Source of the DNA: Acidobacteriota bacterium
GTDB taxonomy: Bacteria > Acidobacteriota > Vicinamibacteria > Vicinamibacterales > UBA8438
Assembly: GCA_009861545.1 (NCBI GenBank)
Contig: VXME01000001.1
Location: 1 to 33,831 of the forward strand
Reading direction: 5' to 3'
DNA: 33,831 bases
Shown: piece after piece, positions 1 through 19,030 of the stretch
How positions within the stretch are numbered: position 1 is the first letter of the stretch
How the letters are laid out: every line of letters begins with the position of its first letter
Notes under the pieces: generated by a model
Databases searched by the model: none
Seen by the model: the letters and a program-made list of their open reading frames with translations, nothing else
Told to the model about the DNA's origin: nothing
Program-made: the position numbers and the translations under genes

Positions 1-1068
1 GAACAGCGACGTGTGGTACGCGTTGATCTTCCGCAGGGCGGCGATCTTCGTCTCGTCGCCCCCGTGGTGCGAGATGGGGTGGTGCGAGTCGGAGACGCCG
101 ATCTGCGGGTAGGTCGCACCGCTCTGCTCGCGGCCGATCTGGAAGGTGATGACGCGGGTGGTGTCGGTCTGCAGGGCCAGCGTCTGCATGTCGAACATCA
201 GCCGCGCGTGCTCGTCGTAGCTGACCGGGATGCCGGCCGGCGAATCCACCAGCGGCAACTCCCGCCCGCGCGCCTCGGCGTTCTGGATGCGCCGCTCGAT
301 CTCGCGGACCGAGTCGACGTACTCGCCCAGCTTCAGGCGGTCGCGGTGTCCGAGGTCGCCTTCCAGGGCGTGCACCTTGTCGAGCACCGAGTCGATGATG
401 CTGCCCTGCCGCTGCAGCCGGGCCTTGCGCACGGCCGGATCGGTGCTCTCGACGCTGCCGAAGAGGCGCTCGAAGACCACGCGCGGGTTCGACTCGACGG
501 GCAGCGGCGTCGTCGGGCTGCTCCAGGCCAGCCGGTTCTGGTAGGCGCAACTGAAGCCGACGTCGCAGGTGCCGACGCCGTTGACGGTGTCGGTGCCCTC
601 GAGGCCGAGCTCGAGTGACGGCAGCGGCGTCTCCTGGCCGACCTGCTGGGCCAGGATCTGGTCCATCGAGGTGCCGAGCTGCAGGCTCGCGCTGCTCGTC
701 GTCCGGAGCGGCTCGATGCCGGTCATGAACGCCCCGGCCGGCTTGGCGTGGGCGCCGGAGCCGCCCGTCCGCGAGCTCGCGCCGGTATTGTCGAGGCCGC
801 TCAGCACCAGCAGGTGCTTCCGGTGCGCCTCCAGCGGCTTCAGCGTCGGCGTGAACTCGAAGTCCGCTCCCTCGGCCGCCGGCGTCCACCCGGCCATGAT
901 GATGCCGTTCGGCACGTACACGGTGCCGAAGCGGGCGATCGGCTTGGCCGCGGTCTTCGACAGCGCGGTGAGCGCCGGCACCATCCCGTCGAGCAGCGGC
1001 AGCGCCAAGGTGGCGCCGATGCCGCGCAGCATGGTCCGGCGGGGAATGGCCTTCTTCGCAATCATCAT
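1..1068 (-). CDS. DUF1552 domain protein, Tat-exported (3' end outside window)
   Basis: The minus-strand frame is open from 1068 to the left edge, about 355 residues, with no stop. The N-terminus reads MMIAKKAIPRRTMLRGIGAT, a twin-arginine motif followed by a hydrophobic stretch, so export by Tat is expected. The body has features typical of DUF1552 proteins: VYVPNGIIMAGWTP near the N-terminus, LLVLSGLDN, GSGAHAKPAGAFMTG, SLELGLEG, and a later DTTRVITFQIGRE segment. The function of DUF1552 is unknown; such genes usually sit beside DUF1592/DUF1588 cytochrome-type genes in Acidobacteria and Planctomycetes, as here. The start ATG overlaps the stop of the upstream DUF1592 gene in an ATGA arrangement, with GAGGT at 1080-1076 as ribosome site, so translational coupling is likely. 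A second ATG follows at 1065. Confidence 0.88.
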   Translation of the reverse strand, partial: MMIAKKAIPRRTMLRGIGATLALPLLDGMVPALTALSKTAAKPIARFGTVYVPNGIIMAGWTPAAEGADFEFTPTLKPLEAHRKHLLVLSGLDNTGASSRTGGSGAHAKPAGAFMTGIEPLRTTSSASLQLGTSMDQILAQQVGQETPLPSLELGLEGTDTVNGVGTCDVGFSCAYQNRLAWSSPTTPLPVESNPRVVFERLFGSVESTDPAVRKARLQRQGSIIDSVLDKVHALEGDLGHRDRLKLGEYVDSVREIERRIQNAEARGRELPLVDSPAGIPVSYDEHARLMFDMQTLALQTDTTRVITFQIGREQSGATYPQIGVSDSHHPISHHGGDETKIAALRKINAYHTSLF

Positions 1069-3548
1069 GACTCTGACCTCCGCATGAGGAACGGTGTGCT
1101 CTTGACGACGGACGATACGAGGGTCGACCAGGTGAGATCGCCGGGCGTCGTCTGCCGGCTGATCTGCCGGACCACCGGCATGTCGTAGTGCTCCAGGGTG
1201 CGGCCGAGGGCATACGTCAGCAGCTTCTCGGTGACCGTCTCGACGAACTGGCCCTCGCGGTTCAGGATGACGTTCCGGAGCCCGGCCAAGCCGTGGACCT
1301 CGGTCCCGTCGATCAGCGTGCCGGACGCGTTGATCGGGATCCCGGTGTCGAAAGGCGTGTTGCCGCCGTTGGTGGCCCGCCAGCGGCCGATCGCGTCGTA
1401 CTGCTCGAGGGCGAACCCGAGCGGGTCGATCGTGCTGTGGCAGCTCGCGCAGACGGCGTTGTTCCGATGCTGCTCCAGCCGCTCGCGGACCGAACGGGGC
1501 GCACTGCCCTCGCTGGCGGTCGGCAGGCTCGGCACGTCCGGCGGCGGCGGCGAGGGAGGCGTGCCCAGAACGTTCTCGAGCAGCCAGACCCCGCGCACGA
1601 CCGGCGACGTGCGGTTGGCGTACGACGTGATCGTGAGCAGGCTGGCGTGGCCGAGGATGCCGCCGCGGGTGTCGTCGGGGTAGTCCACGCGGCGGAAGTG
1701 CACGCCGTGCACGTCGGGAATGCCGTAGTGGCGGGCCAGCCGCTCGTTGACGAAGGTGTAGTTCGCCCGCAGGGCGTTGACCACCGGGCGGTCCTCCCGC
1801 AGCTCGTTCTCCAGGAAGAGCTCGGTCTCCTGCCACATCGCCTCGCGCAGGTTCTCGTCGAACGCGGTGTAGGTGGCCGTGTCCGGTGTCGCGTTGCGCA
1901 GCTTGCGGAGCTGCAGCCACTGGCCCGCGAAGTTCTCGACCAGCGCCTTCGAGCGGGGGTCGGCCAGCATGCGCTCGATCTGCTCGTCGAGCACTTGCGG
2001 CTCGCTCAGCCGGCCCGCCGCCGCGAGGTCGAGCAGCTCGTCGTCGGGGATGCTGCTCCAGAGGAAGAAGGACAGGCGCGAGGCGAGCTCCAGGTCGGCC
2101 AGTCGGTACGGCGTGCCCGCGGGGACGCCCGCAGGATCGGTCTCGATGCGGAACAGGAACTCCGGGTCGACCAGGAGCCGCTCGACCGCGGCCTGGATGC
2201 CCACGTCGAAGCCTCCATCGGCGCGGCCGTCGCGGTAGAAGGGCAGCAACGTCTCGACGTCCGCGGCGGTCGCCGGCCGGCGATAGGCCTGCCGCGCCAA
2301 CGTGGAGAGGATCGTGCGCGCGCAGCGCTCCTCCTCCGCGGCGCCGCCGGTCGGCTCGCAGACGAACAGGCGCTCCCGGCTCGGCAGCCCGGCCGCGCCG
2401 GTGGGGTTGTACGGGCCGATGATCTGGACCTCCGAGACGCCCGGGTTGCCCTCCTGGAACTCGTTCTGTCCATAGGAGTACGTCGAGCGGTCGAGCGGCA
2501 GGGGCAGGATCCCTTCCGGCAGTGCGGGGCGCCGGTGGAAGGAGAGTCCGACCTGGTGCCGGCCCGCGGAGACCGACGTGCGCACCTCCAGCCCCTCGTC
2601 GGCGTGCAGCGAGTACAGCTCCCACTCGGGGAAGGAGCTCGAGTCGTAGATGCTCTCGAACTTGCCGGCGTAGCCCATCGGCGGGCGCTGGCCCTGCTCC
2701 CAGTCGCGGCCGACGGTGAAGCCGCCGACCCGCTCGCCGTCCACGCGGACGTCGAGCTCGTGCGCCCTGCCGAGGCCGCGCACGTAGCCGTACTCCTGCT
2801 TCCGCAGGCTGAACCGGATGATGTACTCGCCGTCGACCGGAAAGTGGTGCTCGATGGCGACGCCGCCGCGCGACCCGAACGGCAGGTCGTCGCTGACGGG
2901 TCCGTCCTGGTCCACCGCGCCGTGGATGGGATAGACCTCGGACACGGCGCGCACGCTCGTATCGCCCACGACGAGCTGGCTGATGCGCCGCGCCGCGGCC
3001 AGATAGCGCTCGATCAGGGTCGGGGAGACGGAGAGGACCTCGGCGATGTTGTCGAAGCCCTCCTGCTCGTCGTCGGCCGGGAGCAGGGCGTTGACGTCGA
3101 TCTCGAGGCCGAAGATGTCGCGGATGGCGTTGGCGTACTCCGCCCGGTTCAGGCGGTGTACGGCGGGCCGGCCGGGATCGGGACTCTCCAGGCCCGCCCG
3201 GTCGAGCTCGGCTTCCAGCCACTCGATGAACCCGTGGGTCGTCGCGGCGGCCGGGCGCGGCCGGCCGGCCGGCGGCATCGCGTTCGCGCGCAGCCGGCGG
3301 ATCACGTGCTCCCAGGTGGCCGCGTTCGTCTCCACCTGCGAGACGTCCAGCGTGTCGAGGGCCAGCCCCGCGGTCAACGTGCGCCGGTTGTGGCAGGCCA
3401 CGCAGTAGCGGTTGAGCAGGGCCCGCGCCTCGGCGGCGCCGGTCTCGGCTTCGTGCTGCGCGGCGGGCCGGGGCTCCGCGCGCAGGTCGAGCTGCGCGGC
3501 GCCGATGAGGGCCGCCATTCCCACGCCCGCGAGTATCCAGCGTGACAT
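1065..3548 (-). CDS. Planctomycete-type cytochrome protein (DUF1587/1595/1592/1588/1585)
   Basis: A predicted exported protein of 827 aa. A hydrophobic N-terminal segment (about residues 4-20) is followed by a heme motif CVACH at 49-53. DUF1587 begins near residue 105 (HRLNRAEYANAIRDIFGLE), a beta-rich carbohydrate-module-like stretch lies at about 190-370, DUF1595 near 385-450, and DUF1592 near 460-590 (ELASRLSFFLWSSIPDDELL). DUF1588 (RGGILGHASLLT, TSPVVRGVWLLENVLG) contains a second CxxCH at about 700-704, and DUF1585 closes the protein (EKLLTYALGRTLE). This order is the full family architecture. The start ATG has GGAGG at 3560-3556, eight bases upstream; a much longer frame upstream is only open because of GC bias. 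The role is unknown, presumably periplasmic redox linked to its DUF1552 partner. Confidence 0.93.
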   Translation of the reverse strand: MSRWILAGVGMAALIGAAQLDLRAEPRPAAQHEAETGAAEARALLNRYCVACHNRRTLTAGLALDTLDVSQVETNAATWEHVIRRLRANAMPPAGRPRPAAATTHGFIEWLEAELDRAGLESPDPGRPAVHRLNRAEYANAIRDIFGLEIDVNALLPADDEQEGFDNIAEVLSVSPTLIERYLAAARRISQLVVGDTSVRAVSEVYPIHGAVDQDGPVSDDLPFGSRGGVAIEHHFPVDGEYIIRFSLRKQEYGYVRGLGRAHELDVRVDGERVGGFTVGRDWEQGQRPPMGYAGKFESIYDSSSFPEWELYSLHADEGLEVRTSVSAGRHQVGLSFHRRPALPEGILPLPLDRSTYSYGQNEFQEGNPGVSEVQIIGPYNPTGAAGLPSRERLFVCEPTGGAAEEERCARTILSTLARQAYRRPATAADVETLLPFYRDGRADGGFDVGIQAAVERLLVDPEFLFRIETDPAGVPAGTPYRLADLELASRLSFFLWSSIPDDELLDLAAAGRLSEPQVLDEQIERMLADPRSKALVENFAGQWLQLRKLRNATPDTATYTAFDENLREAMWQETELFLENELREDRPVVNALRANYTFVNERLARHYGIPDVHGVHFRRVDYPDDTRGGILGHASLLTITSYANRTSPVVRGVWLLENVLGTPPSPPPPDVPSLPTASEGSAPRSVRERLEQHRNNAVCASCHSTIDPLGFALEQYDAIGRWRATNGGNTPFDTGIPINASGTLIDGTEVHGLAGLRNVILNREGQFVETVTEKLLTYALGRTLEHYDMPVVRQISRQTTPGDLTWSTLVSSVVKSTPFLMRRSES

Positions 3549-3619: not shown

Positions 3620-5068
3620 TCAATCCCGGCTCGCCAATCGCGCCAGATGCTGTTCCAGGAGATCGCGCGGCGTCGTGCCGTCCTCGGTCTCCCAGTCCAG
3701 ATCGGCCCCGAGGCCGACCAGGTAGTCGACCACGCTCGTGAATCCGTACCGCGCCGCCGCGTGCAGGGCGGTCTCGCCCGCGCGGATCGTCTCGCGCATC
3801 GTCGCGTCGGCCCCCGCGTCGACGGCGGCCTTGACGGTTTCCAGCACGAGCTCTTCGTCGCTCCACTGGGCGATGACCAGTTCCGGCGCGATCAGCCGGC
3901 TGCGGCGGGTGGTGCTGCGGCTGAGTCCGTGGCCGACCGCCGCCATCAGTGCCGTCGTGCCGTCGTCCGTACGCGCGAGCGGGTCGGCGCCCGCCGCGGC
4001 GATCATCCGGGCGAGCTCCGGCTCCAGGTACTTGGCCGCCAGCAGGAACGGCGTGGCGCCCTTCTCGCGGAGCGTGAAGACGAACTCGTAGGTCCAGCGG
4101 GGCACCGGCGTGCTCCGCGTCAGGCGCGCGTTTGGGTCCGCGCCGCGGGCCAGCAGCATTCTCGCCAGGGAGTGGTCGGCGCGCAGGACCGCCGCGTGCA
4201 GCGCGGTGTAGCCTGCGCCGCCGGCGTTGGGATTGGCGCCGCGGGCCAGCAGGAACTCCGCGAGCCGGGGATGGCCGCTCATGCTCGCCAGCACCAGCGC
4301 GCTGTTGCCGTCCGCGCCGGTCTCGTCGACGTCGGCGCCCGCGTTCAGCAGGCGGCGGGCGGAGTCGACGTCGCCGTGGCGCGCCGCGAACAGCAGCGGG
4401 GTGAAGCCCCCGGCGTCGAAGTGGGTGGCCCCGGCCGGGCTGGTCGTGCTGCGCAGGCCCGTGCCCCGGAATTGCCGCCTCGTAATCGTGCGGGCGTCGA
4501 TTGCCGCGCCGTGATCGAGCAGCACGCGCGTGACGTCGGGCTGGAGGTGGGCGGCGGCCCACATCAGGGCGGTCTGCCCGTTCTCCGGCTCGGTGGCGTC
4601 GATGTCGGCCCCGTGCTCGATCAGCGCCTCCACGGCCACCGGATCGCCCGTCGCCGTGCAGCGCATCAGCACCGTCTCGCCCGCCAGGAGCCCGCGGTCG
4701 GCGTCCGCGCCGGCGGCGAGCAGGCGCTGTACGATCCCGGTGTTGCGGCTGGCGCAGGCGACCCACAGCGGCGTGGCGCCGAGATCGTTGGCGGCGTCGA
4801 CGTTCGCGCCGGATCCGATCAGCCGGTTCACGGTGGGGAGGTCGTTCCAGTGCGCCGCCCAGTGCAGCGCCGTCGCGCCGTCGCCCTGCCGGGTGTCGGC
4901 GTCGACGCCGCGGTCCAGGAGGATGCCGACCGTGGCCCAGTCCCGGTCCTTCGCCGCGTCGACGATCTGCCGGTCGGAGTTGCCCGCGGCCGGAGCCACC
5001 GCCCACGCGCTGCACAGGAGCCCCGCGGCGGCGAGCCGGACGCACTGCTGCCTGATTGTCACGAGCAT
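3620..5068 (-). CDS. Secreted ankyrin-repeat protein
   Basis: A 482-aa protein with an N-terminal signal peptide (residues 1 to about 28, ending near APAAG) followed by about eleven ankyrin repeats, recognisable from TALHWAAHWNDLPTVNRL, TPLWVACASRNTGIVQRLL, TALMWAAAH, TPLLFAARHGD, YTALHAAVLRADHSLARMLL and TALHAAARYGF. Loops of the GADVD/GADPNA type separate the repeats. Ankyrin repeats are protein-interaction modules, and the partner here is unknown. The gene is first in a three-gene operon; its stop is 71 bp before the DUF1592 start. Genes of this kind regularly accompany DUF1592/DUF1552 pairs, so a scaffold role for that complex is a reasonable inference. There is no convincing Shine-Dalgarno site. 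A -10-like box lies five bases before the ATG, so the mRNA may be leaderless. Confidence 0.9.
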   Translation of the reverse strand: MLVTIRQQCVRLAAAGLLCSAWAVAPAAGNSDRQIVDAAKDRDWATVGILLDRGVDADTRQGDGATALHWAAHWNDLPTVNRLIGSGANVDAANDLGATPLWVACASRNTGIVQRLLAAGADADRGLLAGETVLMRCTATGDPVAVEALIEHGADIDATEPENGQTALMWAAAHLQPDVTRVLLDHGAAIDARTITRRQFRGTGLRSTTSPAGATHFDAGGFTPLLFAARHGDVDSARRLLNAGADVDETGADGNSALVLASMSGHPRLAEFLLARGANPNAGGAGYTALHAAVLRADHSLARMLLARGADPNARLTRSTPVPRWTYEFVFTLREKGATPFLLAAKYLEPELARMIAAAGADPLARTDDGTTALMAAVGHGLSRSTTRRSRLIAPELVIAQWSDEELVLETVKAAVDAGADATMRETIRAGETALHAAARYGFTSVVDYLVGLGADLDWETEDGTTPRDLLEQHLARLASRD

Positions 5069-7576: not shown

Positions 7577-8770
7577 ATGTCCACTCTCGCTCCCGCGGCG
7601 CCGACCTCGACGGTCGGGGTCGCCATGCCGGGCTCGTCGTCGCGCGCTGCGTCCGCGGTCGTACCCTGGCCCTTGTGGGCCGTCGCCTTCGCGTCCACGA
7701 GCGTCATCGTCGGCGTGATCTGGGACATCTCCTGGCACCGGTCCATCGGCCGCGACTCGTTCTGGACGCCCGCCCACATGGCGATCTATCTCGGCGGCGT
7801 CGTGGCCGGCTTGTCGTGCGGCTGGCTGGTGCTGCACACCACGTTCGCCGGCAGCGCACGCGAGCGGGCCGCCGCCGTCTCGTTCTGGGGCTTCCGCGGC
7901 CCGCTGGGCGCCTGGGTCTGCATCTGGGGCGCGCTGGCGATGGTCGTCTCGGCCCCGCTCGACGACTGGTGGCACAACGCGTACGGTCTCGACGTCGAGA
8001 TACTGAGTCCGCCCCACATCGTGCTCGCATTCGGCATAAACGCGGTCGCCGTCGGTGCCATGCTGATGGCGCTGGCCCGCCAGAACGCCGCGCCGGCCGC
8101 CGGTCGCGTGCTGCAAATGCTGTTCGCGTACACCGGCGGTTTCCTGATCCTGCAGGCGGCGACGCTCTTCATGGAGTACATCGGGATTCCGAACCTGCAG
8201 CACGGAACGCGCTACTTCTTCACCAGCGCCGCGATCTTTCCCTTCCTGCTGGTGGGAATCGCACGCGGCGCCGCCTCGCGCTGGGGAGCCACCGCGGCGG
8301 CGGGCGTCTACATGGGCGTCACGATGCTCATGATCTGGATCCTGCAGCTCTTTCCGGCGCAGCCGATGCTGGCGCCCATCATGCGGCAGATCGATAACAT
8401 GGTGCCGCCGTCGTTTCCGATCCTCCTGCTGGCGCCGGCTTTTGTAGTGGATCTCATCGTCAATCGCGTGCCCGCCGGGGCGGGCCGCCTGCGTTGGGGC
8501 GCAACCGCCGTCGGAGCCGGCATCGCCGCCATGCTCGCGCTGACTGCCGTGCAGTGGCCGTTCGCGGAGTTTCTGCTCGCCGAGCCGGCCCGCAACTTCT
8601 TCTTCGCCGCCGACCAGTTCGGCTACAGCCGCGCGCCGGGTGCCTACCAGTACGTGTTCTGGGGCCGCCCGATGACCGCGGCGGCCGCGGGCTGGACGGG
8701 GCTGATCGCCGCCGGGTCGGCCCTGTGCGGCCTCTGGATGGGCAACTGGATGGCGCGCGTGCGGAGGTAG
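7577..8770 (+). CDS. Polytopic membrane protein, function unknown
   Basis: A 397-aa protein with about ten predicted membrane segments, for example WPLWAVAFASTSVIVGVIW, AHMAIYLGGVVAGLSCGWL, WVCIWGALAMVVSAPL, HIVLAFGINAVAVGAMLMAL and ATAAAGVYMGVTMLMIWILQ. Several histidine-containing motifs sit at membrane boundaries (WDISWHRSIGRDSFW, TPAHMAIY, DDWWHNAYG, SPPHIV), which could bind a metal or heme, but no family signature is recognised. Its stop is one base before the next gene, so the two are surely cotranscribed and probably act together. No Shine-Dalgarno sequence precedes the ATG. A weak TAACCT box at 7565-7570 would make it leaderless; an internal ATG at 7625 is an alternative start. Confidence 0.78.
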   Translation: MSTLAPAAPTSTVGVAMPGSSSRAASAVVPWPLWAVAFASTSVIVGVIWDISWHRSIGRDSFWTPAHMAIYLGGVVAGLSCGWLVLHTTFAGSARERAAAVSFWGFRGPLGAWVCIWGALAMVVSAPLDDWWHNAYGLDVEILSPPHIVLAFGINAVAVGAMLMALARQNAAPAAGRVLQMLFAYTGGFLILQAATLFMEYIGIPNLQHGTRYFFTSAAIFPFLLVGIARGAASRWGATAAAGVYMGVTMLMIWILQLFPAQPMLAPIMRQIDNMVPPSFPILLLAPAFVVDLIVNRVPAGAGRLRWGATAVGAGIAAMLALTAVQWPFAEFLLAEPARNFFFAADQFGYSRAPGAYQYVFWGRPMTAAAAGWTGLIAAGSALCGLWMGNWMARVRR

Positions 8771-8771
8771 C

Positions 8772-10499
8772 ATGAGCGCCTCGCGCAGTGTTCTCGCGCC
8801 CGTGGACGGCAGTCGCCGGCTTGCCCGGAGCGGTGTCGCGCGCCGCACGGGCGCCGCAGTCCTGATCGTCACCGGCCTGATCGCGGCCGCCGGGTCGACC
8901 GCGTCGGCCCACGTCGGCACCTCGAACGCCTACTTCGACGGGGCCGCCGGCCCCTACCGCGTCCGCGTCATCGTTCGGACCCCCGGCGTGATCCCCGGCC
9001 TCGCGCAGGCTTCGGTCCGGGTCCTCGGCGGCGAGCGCGTGGAGCGCGTGACGCTCCGGCCGCTGCGATCCGACGTCGGGCTGGAAGGCGCGCCACCCCC
9101 GGACGTCGCCGGTCCCGTGCCCGGCGAGGCGGGCCTGTACAGCGGCGAGCTGTGGCTGATGACCGCCGGTTCGTACAGCGTGGAGGTCGGCGTGGCCGGG
9201 GCCGCCGGCGAGGGGACCGTCTTCGTGCCGGTGTTGGCGCTCGCCGAGCGGCGGCTCGCAATGAACCCGGCCTTCGGCGCGGCGCTGGTCGCGGCGGCGC
9301 TGTTTCTGTTCGTCGGCGCGGTCACGATCGTCGGCGCCGCGGTCCGCGACAGCGTGCTCGATCCCGGCAGGGAGCCGGACGCGGGCCGGCGCTGGCGCGC
9401 ACGCTTCGCGATGGCCGCGTTCGCGCTGGTTCTCGGCGCCCTCCTCGGCGGCGGCTGGATCTGGTGGGATGCCGTGGACGCCGCGTACCGGAGCCGCCTG
9501 TACCGCCCCTGGAACACGACCGCGGCGGTGACGGAGGCCGGCGGAACGCGCATTCTGACGCTGGCGATCGACGACCCGGACTGGCGCGCCATCGAAGGCC
9601 TGCCCGATGCCGGACTGCTGCCGGACCACGGCAAGCTGATGCACCTGTTCCTGGTGCGAGCCGGAGATCTGGCGGCGTTCGCCCACGTCCACCCGGTGCG
9701 GGCCGGCTACGATTCGTTCAGGGTTCCGCTGCCGCCGCTGCCCGCAGGGGAGTACCGCATCTACGCGGACATCGTGCTCGAGAACGGCTTCGCGCCGACG
9801 CTGGTGGACACGGTGACTGTGGGGCCGCCCGGCGCTGCCGCGTTCGGAGCCTCGCCCGCGGCGGGAGGTTCGACCGAGCCGGACGGCGACCCGCCGTCGG
9901 CCGGTCCGCCGTCGGCCGATCCGGATCCGGACGATTCGTGGGCGGCGCTGCGGCCCCTCGGCGCGTCGCGCTCCGGAAGCTACGCGCTCCCGAGCGGGCG
10001 AACGGTCCGCTGGGAGGAGGACGGCCGGATCGGCGCCGACGATGAGATCACGCTGCGATTCTCCGTGGCCGAGCCGGACGGGTCGCCGTCGGCGCTGGCG
10101 CCCTACATGGGCATGCGCAGCCACGCCGCGGTCCTGCGGGACGACGGATCGGTGTTCGTGCACCTGCATCCGGCCGGCAGCATCAACCTCACCGCGCAGA
10201 TGCGTTTCGCCGAAGCGGAGGGCGCAGCCGCCGGACGGGAGCCGGCCGGCGGGAACGATCGACCGGTGCGCGCCGACGGGCAGGCCGCCCGGGCGCTGGA
10301 CGGCGGACGGCACGGAACCTCGCCGGGCGGAGTGCACGACGCCGGGGTTCAGGCCGCGTCCCCGCCGGCGAACGTGGTGACGTTTCCGTTCGTCTTTCCC
10401 GAGCCGGGCGCCTACCGCATCTTCGTGCAGGTGAAGATCGGAGCGGAGGTCGAAACGGCCGCCTTCGACGTGGAAGTCGGAGGAGCGCCGGCGTCTTGA
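8772..10499 (+). CDS. Membrane-anchored protein with two His-containing (YtkA/FixH-like) beta modules
   Basis: A 575-aa protein: signal peptide (AVLIVTGLIAAAGSTASAH), an extracytoplasmic beta domain with the mature start AHVGTSNAYFDG, two membrane helices (about 175-197 and 214-234), then a periplasmic part with two similar modules. Module 1 has GKLMHLFLVRAGDLAAFAHV followed by HP and ends in PLPAGEYRIYADI. Module 2 has MRSHAAVLRDDGSVFVHLHP and ends in PEPGAYRIFVQVKIG. The modules resemble YtkA/FixH-like or metal-associated beta domains; assignment is by pattern, not search. A Pro/Asp/Ser-rich linker (about 360-400) and a low-complexity insert (about 490-530) interrupt module 2. GGAGG ends four bases before the ATG. 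It probably works with the polytopic protein just upstream. Confidence 0.75.
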   Translation: MSASRSVLAPVDGSRRLARSGVARRTGAAVLIVTGLIAAAGSTASAHVGTSNAYFDGAAGPYRVRVIVRTPGVIPGLAQASVRVLGGERVERVTLRPLRSDVGLEGAPPPDVAGPVPGEAGLYSGELWLMTAGSYSVEVGVAGAAGEGTVFVPVLALAERRLAMNPAFGAALVAAALFLFVGAVTIVGAAVRDSVLDPGREPDAGRRWRARFAMAAFALVLGALLGGGWIWWDAVDAAYRSRLYRPWNTTAAVTEAGGTRILTLAIDDPDWRAIEGLPDAGLLPDHGKLMHLFLVRAGDLAAFAHVHPVRAGYDSFRVPLPPLPAGEYRIYADIVLENGFAPTLVDTVTVGPPGAAAFGASPAAGGSTEPDGDPPSAGPPSADPDPDDSWAALRPLGASRSGSYALPSGRTVRWEEDGRIGADDEITLRFSVAEPDGSPSALAPYMGMRSHAAVLRDDGSVFVHLHPAGSINLTAQMRFAEAEGAAAGREPAGGNDRPVRADGQAARALDGGRHGTSPGGVHDAGVQAASPPANVVTFPFVFPEPGAYRIFVQVKIGAEVETAAFDVEVGGAPAS

Positions 10500-17992: not shown

Positions 17993-19030
17993 ATGACGGT
18001 TCGTGGTTTCGCGGCGGTTCTGGCCCTGCTCACGCTGGCGGCGGGTGCATCCGCGCCGGCCGTGGCTCAGGAGGAGTTCGAGCCGCCGCGTCTCGCGGAC
18101 GGCAGGCCCGACCTGCAAGGCGTGTGGGATTTCCGCACCCTGACGCCGCTGCAGAGGCCCGAGGAGCAGGAGAGCGCGGTGCTGACGGCCGAGGAAGCGG
18201 CCGAGATCGAAGCGCGGTCCGCCGAGCGCAGCGCCGAGTTGAACGCGCCGACCGAGCGCAGCGGCGAGTTGCTGCCGGTGGGCGGCAACGTCGGCGGCTA
18301 CAACCACTACTGGGTCGATCAGGGCGCCAGCGTCGTCGATGACCAGCGGACGTCCCTCATCGTCGATCCGCCGGACGGCCGCGTGCCGCCGCTGCAGCCC
18401 GGGTTCGAGTTGATCGAGCTGTCGCTCGGCGAGGATCGGCCGGGGACGCGCCCGGTTCGCGTTCGGGCCGCCGGCATCGGTGCCGACAGCTACGAGGACC
18501 GCGGGCTGGCCGAGCGCTGCCTGCTCGGGTTCAACTCCGGCCCACCCATCGTGCCGGCCGGCTACAACCAGAACCTGCAGATCTTCCAGACGCCCGACCA
18601 CGTCGTCATCCTGCACGAGATGGTGCACGACGCGCGCATCGTCCCGCTCGACGGACGCGACCACCTGCCGGGGAGCGTCCGGCAGTGGATGGGCGACTCC
18701 CGCGGCTACTGGGACGGCGACACGCTGGTCGTCGAGTCGATCAACTTCACCGACAAGGTGGCCAGCTTCAACCCGTCGGTGGCCACGGCGGCCGGCGACG
18801 GCTCGACGCTGCATCTGACGGAGCGCTTCACGCGGGTTGCCGGCGACACGCTGCTCTACGAGTTCACGGTCAACGATCCGACCACCTTCACGCGGCCCTT
18901 CACGGCGGCGCTGCCGATGAAGCTCGGCGAGGGGATGTACGAGTACGCCTGCCACGAGGGCAACTACGGGCTGTTCAACATCCTGTCGGGCGCCCGCGCG
19001 GCGGAGCGTGACGCCGCGTCGCAGCAGTAG
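17993..19030 (+). CDS. Secreted protein of the WGDPDLQG/CHEGNYG family, paralogue 3
   Basis: A 345-aa tandem paralogue, 46 bp after the previous gene and probably cotranscribed. The signal peptide ends near APAVAQ. The mature protein opens with ADGRPDLQGVWDFRTLTPLQ, here without the WGD triplet seen in the other two. Conserved blocks are LLPVGGNVGGYNHYW, SLIVDPPDGRVP, GYNQNLQIFQTPDHVVILHE, YWDGDTLVVESINF, LTERFTR, FTVNDPTTFTRPF and YEYACHEGNYGLFNIL. Several blocks (LPVGGNVG..YN.YW) are shared with the 6371 protein but not with its immediate neighbour, so the tandem pair is not a recent duplication. AAGGAGG at 17981-17987 is five bases from the ATG. Function unknown. Confidence 0.86.
   Translation: MTVRGFAAVLALLTLAAGASAPAVAQEEFEPPRLADGRPDLQGVWDFRTLTPLQRPEEQESAVLTAEEAAEIEARSAERSAELNAPTERSGELLPVGGNVGGYNHYWVDQGASVVDDQRTSLIVDPPDGRVPPLQPGFELIELSLGEDRPGTRPVRVRAAGIGADSYEDRGLAERCLLGFNSGPPIVPAGYNQNLQIFQTPDHVVILHEMVHDARIVPLDGRDHLPGSVRQWMGDSRGYWDGDTLVVESINFTDKVASFNPSVATAAGDGSTLHLTERFTRVAGDTLLYEFTVNDPTTFTRPFTAALPMKLGEGMYEYACHEGNYGLFNILSGARAAERDAASQQ

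Follow-up and report, generated by a model that had tools for sequence, protein, structure and literature searches.

Copper membrane monooxygenases (CuMMOs), such as the particulate methane monooxygenase (pMMO) and the ammonia monooxygenase (AMO), are encoded by three genes, xmoC, xmoA and xmoB (PMC6215863). In pMMO, the ligands of two copper sites all lie in PmoC: Asp156, His160 and His173 for CuC, and Asn227, His231 and His245 for CuD (PMC12576850). PmoB carries a His brace made of the mature N-terminal His33 together with His137 and His139 (PMC8262859), and in Ca. Angelarchaeales, whose archaeal CuMMOs are divergent, the three subunits and the C site are retained (PMC9038741). Two questions are open for pMMO: whether CuC or CuD is the catalytic site, and where the enzyme came from. 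Here, we analyze a pair of adjacent genes, P1 and P2, in a stretch of 33,831 nucleotides from an Acidobacteriota bacterium of the order Vicinamibacterales (contig VXME01000001.1, positions 1 to 33,831; hereafter the window), and compare it with these systems. We found no paper on a two-gene relative of this kind among the matches listed in the open-licence literature (subscription journals and preprints fall outside this scope), and the available excerpts of the CuMMO genome papers on sponge metagenome-assembled genomes (MAGs) and on Binatota mention no such pair (PMC8163846, PMC8262859).

P1 and P2 are encoded on the same strand and are separated by a single base in the list of open reading frames (ORFs), in agreement with the initial annotation, made from the sequence alone, which had described a two-gene unit of a His-rich membrane protein and a periplasmic partner. 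The two proteins of the window have no Pfam match above the cut-off, no NCBIfam family and no sequence match in the PDB, and the profile of P1 gave only chance-level matches against the PDB. In the AlphaFold2 (AF2) model of P1 (predicted local distance difference test, pLDDT, of 92.3), we count nine long helices, a further one of 11 residues and four that are very short. The initial annotation had described about ten helices with His at their ends, and H54, H67, H133 and H147 do sit at helix ends, those of helices 1 to 4. Together with two Asp, these His form two motifs, D50/H54/H67 (D-x3-H-x12-H) and D129/H133/H147 (D-x3-H-x13-H), whose ligand offsets, 4 and 13 in the first motif and 4 and 14 in the second, equal those of CuC and CuD in PmoC. 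We call them the CuC-like and CuD-like sites.

To assess the distribution of the pair, we collected relatives at several distances. A match to P1 was present in 11 of 60 close genomes, counting that of the window itself, two of them being fragments (G027, G051). P2 was adjacent in the eight relatives with a full-length P1, one of which is frame-shifted, and the His named by the initial annotation were invariant in alignments of 8 P1 and 9 P2. The closest named relative is a Vicinamibacterales MAG with a P1 about 90% identical. Among 396 genomes drawn from the same phylum, 22 had a P1 match. A scan of 84,980 species genomes confirmed 409 stretches, and we retained and read 80 of them. By record label, they comprise 52 Gemmatimonadota, 18 Acidobacteriota, 7 Verrucomicrobiota, one Planctomycetota, one Eiseniibacteriota and one Pseudomonadota, this last being probably mislabelled (L078, a MAG labelled Klebsiella pneumoniae that carries the pair and whose bin is probably misassigned). 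No P1 relative was found in viral contigs.

The ligands are conserved across these sequences. Over 100 P1 places, corresponding to 99 different sequences, H54, H67, D129, H133 and H147 are present in 100/100 and D50 in 99/100. At the CuD-like site an Asp replaces the Asn of PmoC in all 100, and both His and their spacing are kept in all 100. R59 and D60, which follow the first His, are also kept in 100/100 places, and their PmoC counterparts, R150 and D151, are invariant in ten PmoC/AmoC sequences taken from one Acidobacteriota contig, plasmids and viral contigs, as are the CuC and CuD ligand positions themselves. The scan used two peptide patterns that overlap the His motifs, and conservation in its 80 loci is therefore partly selected. 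The pattern-free set consists of 18 places found by profile search. The same residues are kept there, except for D50N in L111 and five changed P2 His in the place that diverges most, L121. The former is a P1 copy in genome G202 with an internal TAG and an Asn at D50, the sole change of a P1 ligand that we saw. The most divergent pair (L130, 6164-10480 on the minus strand, genome G114) keeps all six P1 ligands and has changed H286, H307, H451, H464 and H466 in P2.

P2 follows P1 on the same strand in 78 of the 80 scan loci, the two exceptions being a contig end (L079) and a locus without recognisable P2 (L095). Hence, the conservation of the neighbourhood and of the His motifs, proposed as checks of the initial annotation, both came out in its favor, the motifs being kept over the 100 P1 places and over 98 P2 places. 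Pairwise distances of P1 and P2 have a correlation of 0.94 over 88 loci in which both genes are nearly complete, a value uncorrected for shared ancestry. Neither the clustering of the ORFs of the 80 loci nor a tally of neighbours revealed a third gene conserved across the family; from their size, strand and position, we judged the other large ORF clusters to be overlapping or antisense shadow ORFs of the pair. The tally of Pfam families was restricted to same-strand neighbours and covered 62 of 86 (31 on the upstream side and 31 on the downstream side), the remaining 24 having been discarded on visual inspection because they were shadow ORFs, short or nearly duplicated. The 25 of 74 families listed include solute-binding proteins, with SBP_bac_8 in 7, and no copper or oxidase family. 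A secreted protein of the solute-binding type lies just upstream of P1 in seven Gemmatimonadota loci (L035, L040, L049, L060, L069, L077 and L082). In another Gemmatimonadota MAG (L080, 187-2778), one ORF runs across P1 and P2 and the end of P1 is missing. This may be a gene fusion, although a deletion introduced by the assembly is equally likely; in L088, the corresponding region is occupied by a stretch of N.

We then compared P1 with the subunits of the monooxygenases. The hhalign comparison of the profiles of 69 P1 and 10 PmoC gave an E-value of 2.1e-5, and the extended alignment spans both sites in exact register. The score is 45.4, whereas none of 60 column shuffles exceeded 25.6 and the reversed profile scored 15.5. 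The PmoC profile, searched against the 5274 ORFs of the 80 loci, had 33 matches, all of them P1 (33 of the 80 P1 ORFs). The full spacing pattern is present in 10/10 PmoC, 0/4 PmoA, 0/5194 other ORFs and 80/80 P1, the last count being taken on loci that had themselves been found with overlapping peptide patterns. Of all Pfam families, AmoC (PF04896) gathers the largest number of P1 relatives, with 12 of the 69 matching it at E up to 1 and a best E of 6.5e-4. CopD, whose membrane domain we take to be PF05425, is not among the 25 of 30 Pfam families listed for the same 69 relatives.

The structural evidence goes in the same general direction. In the VIA structure list for P1, the first 12 rows are pMMO/AMO entries with Z between 8.3 and 12.9, and row 13 has a Z of 7.4; since Z below 13 in helical proteins can reflect a common arrangement, we regard this result as supporting and not decisive. 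The matched chains are PmoA/AmoA, the best (Z 12.9) over 208 residues at 4.1 Å. The list shows one chain per entry, so that the lack of PmoC chains in it tells nothing. The profiles of P1 and PmoA gave E-values of 0.0037-0.0054, which is not significant, and those of P1 and PmoB 0.75; the C-terminal half of P1 against PmoA was marginal (25.9 versus at most 23.4 in 60 shuffles). A kinship of PmoA and PmoC would explain how P1 can have a PmoA-like fold together with PmoC motifs, but the comparison of their profiles gave no sequence signal for it.

The AF2 model of P2 (pLDDT 85.4) starts with a beta domain, which is followed by a pair of long helices and then by two more beta domains. The two-helix anchor and the tandem His modules that had been read from the sequence are confirmed by the model, the two modules (domains 2 and 3) being related to each other (hhalign E 1.1e-6). 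The initial annotation had missed the beta domain at the N-terminus (residues 53-156) and a His, H47, that is likely to be the first residue of the mature protein. In 94 of 98 relatives, an Ala (76) or a Gly (18) precedes position 47, from which we infer cleavage of a signal peptide ahead of His47, itself a His in 96/98. P2 thus probably starts with a mature N-terminal His, as does PmoB. Conservation of the other His is similar: 97/98 for H291 and H305, the sole gap being a truncated sequence (L040), 96/98 for H307, 95/98 for H464 and 94/98 for H466. The C-terminal domain resembles the copper protein CrdA (VIA-align Z 11.8, root-mean-square deviation 2.2 over 100 residues), and the P2 profile has a weak match to a copper resistance protein in the PDB (E 0.054, N-terminal beta domain). 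At E up to 1, P2 relatives weakly match YtkA (PF13115; 21 of 69, best 4e-5) and CopC (PF04234; 8 of 69, best 0.012), while the P2 of the window matches neither. We also considered P2 as a homologue of PmoB and rejected it, since profile comparisons gave no support. Foldseek did list an AmoB chain (9pxf_A; E 1.2e-4, template modelling score 0.11-0.15), at rank 31 among unrelated immunoglobulin-like folds, which we regard as non-specific.

Related proteins occur on actinobacterial plasmids, where we found seven records in Mycolicibacterium, Streptomyces, Leifsonia and Rubrobacter. In the Rubrobacter record the gene is broken into two frames, and the seventh record, Streptomyces FR1, was left out. 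The five intact cousins, annotated as hypothetical, are single chains of about 480 amino acids with a P1-like core (E 1.8e-22) and both sites in 5/5. In all five, the core is followed by A-x-A|HDPGQG, then by a beta domain and a C-terminal hydrophobic stretch. The internal site resembles that of a signal peptidase, which suggests a cleavage leaving a mature N-terminal His. The beta domain is related to domain 1 of P2 (E 6.8e-4; score 29.7 versus at most 19.4 in 30 shuffles). Hence, P1 and P2 have fused counterparts in Actinobacteria, which argues that they act together. The cousins differ from the pair in being one chain, in having no H-x-H-P modules and, for at least three of the five, in the copper genes that lie close by. 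No match to one of these cousins was found in phages.

The two sites of P1 may have a common origin. Repeat unit 1 (helices 1-2) and unit 2 (helices 3-4) of P1 match each other with E 0.0025 (score 19.9 versus at most 14.9 in 30 shuffles), and the corresponding units of the cousins do so with E 7.9e-11 (54.1 versus at most 17.6 in 30 shuffles). Unit 1 of P1 also matches the CuC unit of PmoC (E 3.1e-8) and unit 2 of the cousins (E 2.4e-8). These profile matches suggest that the CuC-like and CuD-like sites arose by internal duplication. The CuD unit of PmoC alone matches nothing, not even the CuC unit of PmoC, so that for PmoC the duplication would be reached only through the cousins.

P1/P2 is not a canonical CuMMO, because neither PmoA (PF02461) nor PmoB (PF04744) has a match in any of 26 searched genomes that bear P1, whereas the same searches do find matches in 3/3 control records (plasmids). 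Neither was found in earlier searches of 29 relatives, run without such a positive control. P1 has the Asp/His/His of the CuC site, and the locus does not have the three-gene layout. The H-x-H motifs of P2 lie in domains 2 and 3 and not in the N-terminal domain, as they would in the PmoB brace. A true PmoC/AmoC does occur in the same phylum (genome G102, locus L127, 2497-3279), at the end of a short contig and in a genome with no PmoA/PmoB match; it represents either contamination or an incomplete operon. Plasmids of Nitrosomonas and Methylocystis also carry amoC with no amoA or amoB annotated nearby (L155, L156, L160).

Taken together, these results make it likely that P1 and P2 together make up a membrane-bound copper complex of two subunits, a distant kin of pMMO and AMO, a judgement that excludes any step involving O2. 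Copper binding by the two proteins is predicted here from homology. The initial annotation had proposed a metal, heme or copper system: copper gained support from the kinship of P1 with PmoC/AmoC and from the copper genes near the cousins, and heme did not, since neither protein has a CxxCH motif. It had also stated that the pair has no recognised name, which holds, and had not seen the link to methane and ammonia monooxygenases. In the mechanism that we propose, P2 would capture copper outside the membrane at the mature N-terminal His47 and at the H-x-H-P loops, and would sit on P1 much as PmoB sits on PmoA and PmoC. Copper would then occupy the CuC-like and CuD-like sites of P1. In the last step, which is the weakest, a P1 site would activate O2 and oxidise a small hydrophobic substrate, P1 doing the work that is shared by PmoC and PmoA. 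For the two-gene family we lean slightly, and tentatively, towards such an enzyme, because the motifs are fully kept and no copper genes appear among the tallied neighbours.

It is also quite possible that the pair handles copper without catalysis. P2, similar to CopC and YtkA, would capture the metal, and P1 would pass it through the membrane, store it or sense it, in the manner of CopC/CopD. The two Asp/His/His sites of P1 would then be stepping stones, and the methane monooxygenase would have been recruited from such a protein. The weak matches of P2 relatives to YtkA and CopC and the likeness of domain 3 to CrdA fit this explanation, as does the divergent G114 copy, which lies next to the gene of a YtkA protein (E 9.2e-12) and to that of a dihaem protein of the MauG type (E 3.5e-38). 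Clear copper genes surround three of the five intact cousins (Leifsonia, Streptomyces F2 and S. mirabilis), including copper-type ATPases, a multicopper oxidase, a cupredoxin and a four-helix copper protein, but the cousins come from a plasmid collection that is probably rich in metal-resistance islands, and their proximity to copper genes has no background rate to be set against. The two Mycolicibacterium loci give weaker signs, one having a heavy-metal-associated domain protein with a BlaI/MecI/CopY regulator and the other only a BlaI/MecI/CopY-type regulator with a YHS protein; the Rubrobacter copy has no copper genes nearby. The two-gene family itself speaks against copper handling, as no copper family is among the 25 of 74 listed in the tally of 62 same-strand neighbours. 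Nearby copper or oxidase genes, which had been suggested as a check, were thus found (for copper) near the actinobacterial cousins and not among the families listed for the pair.

Several observations weigh against kinship with the monooxygenases; those on the scoring columns, the AmoC matches and Foldseek would also fit a short metal motif that arose by convergence in an unrelated membrane protein binding Zn, Fe or another metal. The score of P1 against PmoC comes from 26 columns around the CuC-like site, and when the columns are shuffled in blocks of 10, so that the motif stays whole, scores reach 44.1 compared with 45.4. The CuD-like unit alone has no significant match to PmoC (E 0.15), and its assignment depends on the spacing and on the extended alignment. 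The AmoC matches are weak: the P1 of the window has none at E up to 1, and the P1 homologue of G418, the sole relative for which we saw a bit score, has 23.1 bits (7e-5), below the Pfam cut-off of 26.7, so that AmoC membership of P1 falls short by this measure. Foldseek with P1 gave no PDB match at E of 0.001 or less, the top row being a PmoA chain with E 0.12, the best of the pMMO chains. The structural matches point to PmoA, which the argument from the PmoC sites did not predict, and the profiles of P2 and PmoB gave no sequence kinship (E 0.014 or worse). Convergence is nevertheless improbable, in our opinion, since it would have to produce two separate motifs with matching spacing and the Arg-Asp after the first His that is common to P1 and PmoC, while AmoC ranks first by member count in all of Pfam and pMMO/AMO entries fill the top of the VIA list. 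That P1 and P2 are chance neighbours without joint function is hardly credible: the lack of a conserved third gene agrees with it, but the conserved order in 78/80 loci across five phyla (by record label), the correlated distances (uncorrected for shared ancestry) and the actinobacterial fusion do not.

Being simpler, with two genes that bring both motifs to genomes lacking PmoA/PmoB matches, such a relative would provide an outgroup for the monooxygenases and a smaller test system, and the internal repeat suggests how, concretely, the CuC/CuD pair may have originated. If P1/P2 is an enzyme, a capacity for oxidation would have been overlooked in many soil and marine bacteria; if its role is copper handling, it would illustrate what the monooxygenase may have been recruited from. 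One can also speculate, with considerable doubt, that P1/P2 is a living branch of the ancestral stock of methane and ammonia monooxygenases, in which P1 would unite a PmoA-like fold with both PmoC sites, derived from a duplicated two-helix Asp/His/His unit, and that in Gemmatimonadota, Acidobacteriota and Verrucomicrobiota the pair would be a copper enzyme that uses O2 and has gone unrecognised.

The coordinates of the features are given in Table 1. Near the pair, the window has genes of the asparaginase and FAA-hydrolase types, without evident link to P1/P2. At 1065-3545 on the minus strand lies a gene with the Planctomycete-type domains PSD2-PSD5 and PSCyt3 and a cytochrome c part, which is adjoined by an ankyrin-repeat gene (3620-5068). 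ARAGORN called a tRNA at 18385-18476 on the plus strand, with an incomplete anticodon, which is probably spurious.

Table 1. Features of the P1/P2 pair in the window and fused relatives in actinobacterial plasmid records (positions of the latter are those of the loci named)
Feature	Position	Strand	Basis or remark
P1 ORF	7577..8770	+	397 aa polytopic membrane protein, distant PmoC/AmoC relative
P1 repeat unit 1, residues 28-98, helices 1-2	7658..7870	+	Profile versus unit 2
CuC-like site, D50, H54, H67	7724..7777	+	Between helices 1 and 2
P1 repeat unit 2, residues 106-178, helices 3-4	7892..8110	+	Profile versus unit 1
CuD-like site, D129, H133, H147	7961..8017	+	Between helices 3 and 4
P2 ORF	8772..10499	+	575 aa anchored extracytoplasmic partner; three beta domains and two long helices
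Putative signal peptide of P2, ends A-S-A	8772..8909	+	Ala/Gly before residue 47
His47, predicted mature N-terminus of P2	8910..8912	+	His-brace candidate; His in 96/98
P2 N-terminal beta domain, residues 53-156	8928..9239	+	AF2 strands
Two long P2 helices, 166-193 and 204-241	9267..9494	+	AF2 model
P2 middle beta domain, H286, H291, FAHVHP (H305, H307)	9516..9821	+	AF2
P2 C-terminal beta domain, H451, FVHLHP (H464, H466)	9936..10481	+	AF2
Fusion protein, L165	5962-7404		Annotated hypothetical
Fusion protein, L167	5944-7368		Annotated hypothetical
Fusion protein, L168	7986-9452		Annotated hypothetical
Fusion protein, L169	7992-9479		Annotated hypothetical
Fusion protein, L170	8004-9434		Annotated hypothetical

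Compared with the known systems, P2 shares with the immunoglobulin-like copper domains of YtkA, CopC and CrdA the weak family matches and the fold of its domain 3, and differs from them in being multi-domain and anchored in the membrane. Its layout is that of PmoB/AmoB, with a signal peptide, A-H at the predicted mature start, a beta domain, two helices and a beta domain, and the two have an H-x-H-P motif in common. Unlike PmoB, P2 has its H-x-H after the helices and has a third beta domain, and profile kinship between the two was not found. P1 resembles PmoA/AmoA in its predicted overall fold, whereas both copper motifs are lacking in PmoA. PmoC has about 90 more N-terminal residues than P1 and an Asn where P1 has the Asp of the CuD-like site, P1 has roughly 200 more residues after the sites, and the AmoC model does not match the P1 of the window. 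What P1 shares with PmoC/AmoC is the succession of D-x3-H-x12-H and [N/D]-x3-H-x13-H with the same spacing, and the Arg-Asp after the first His.

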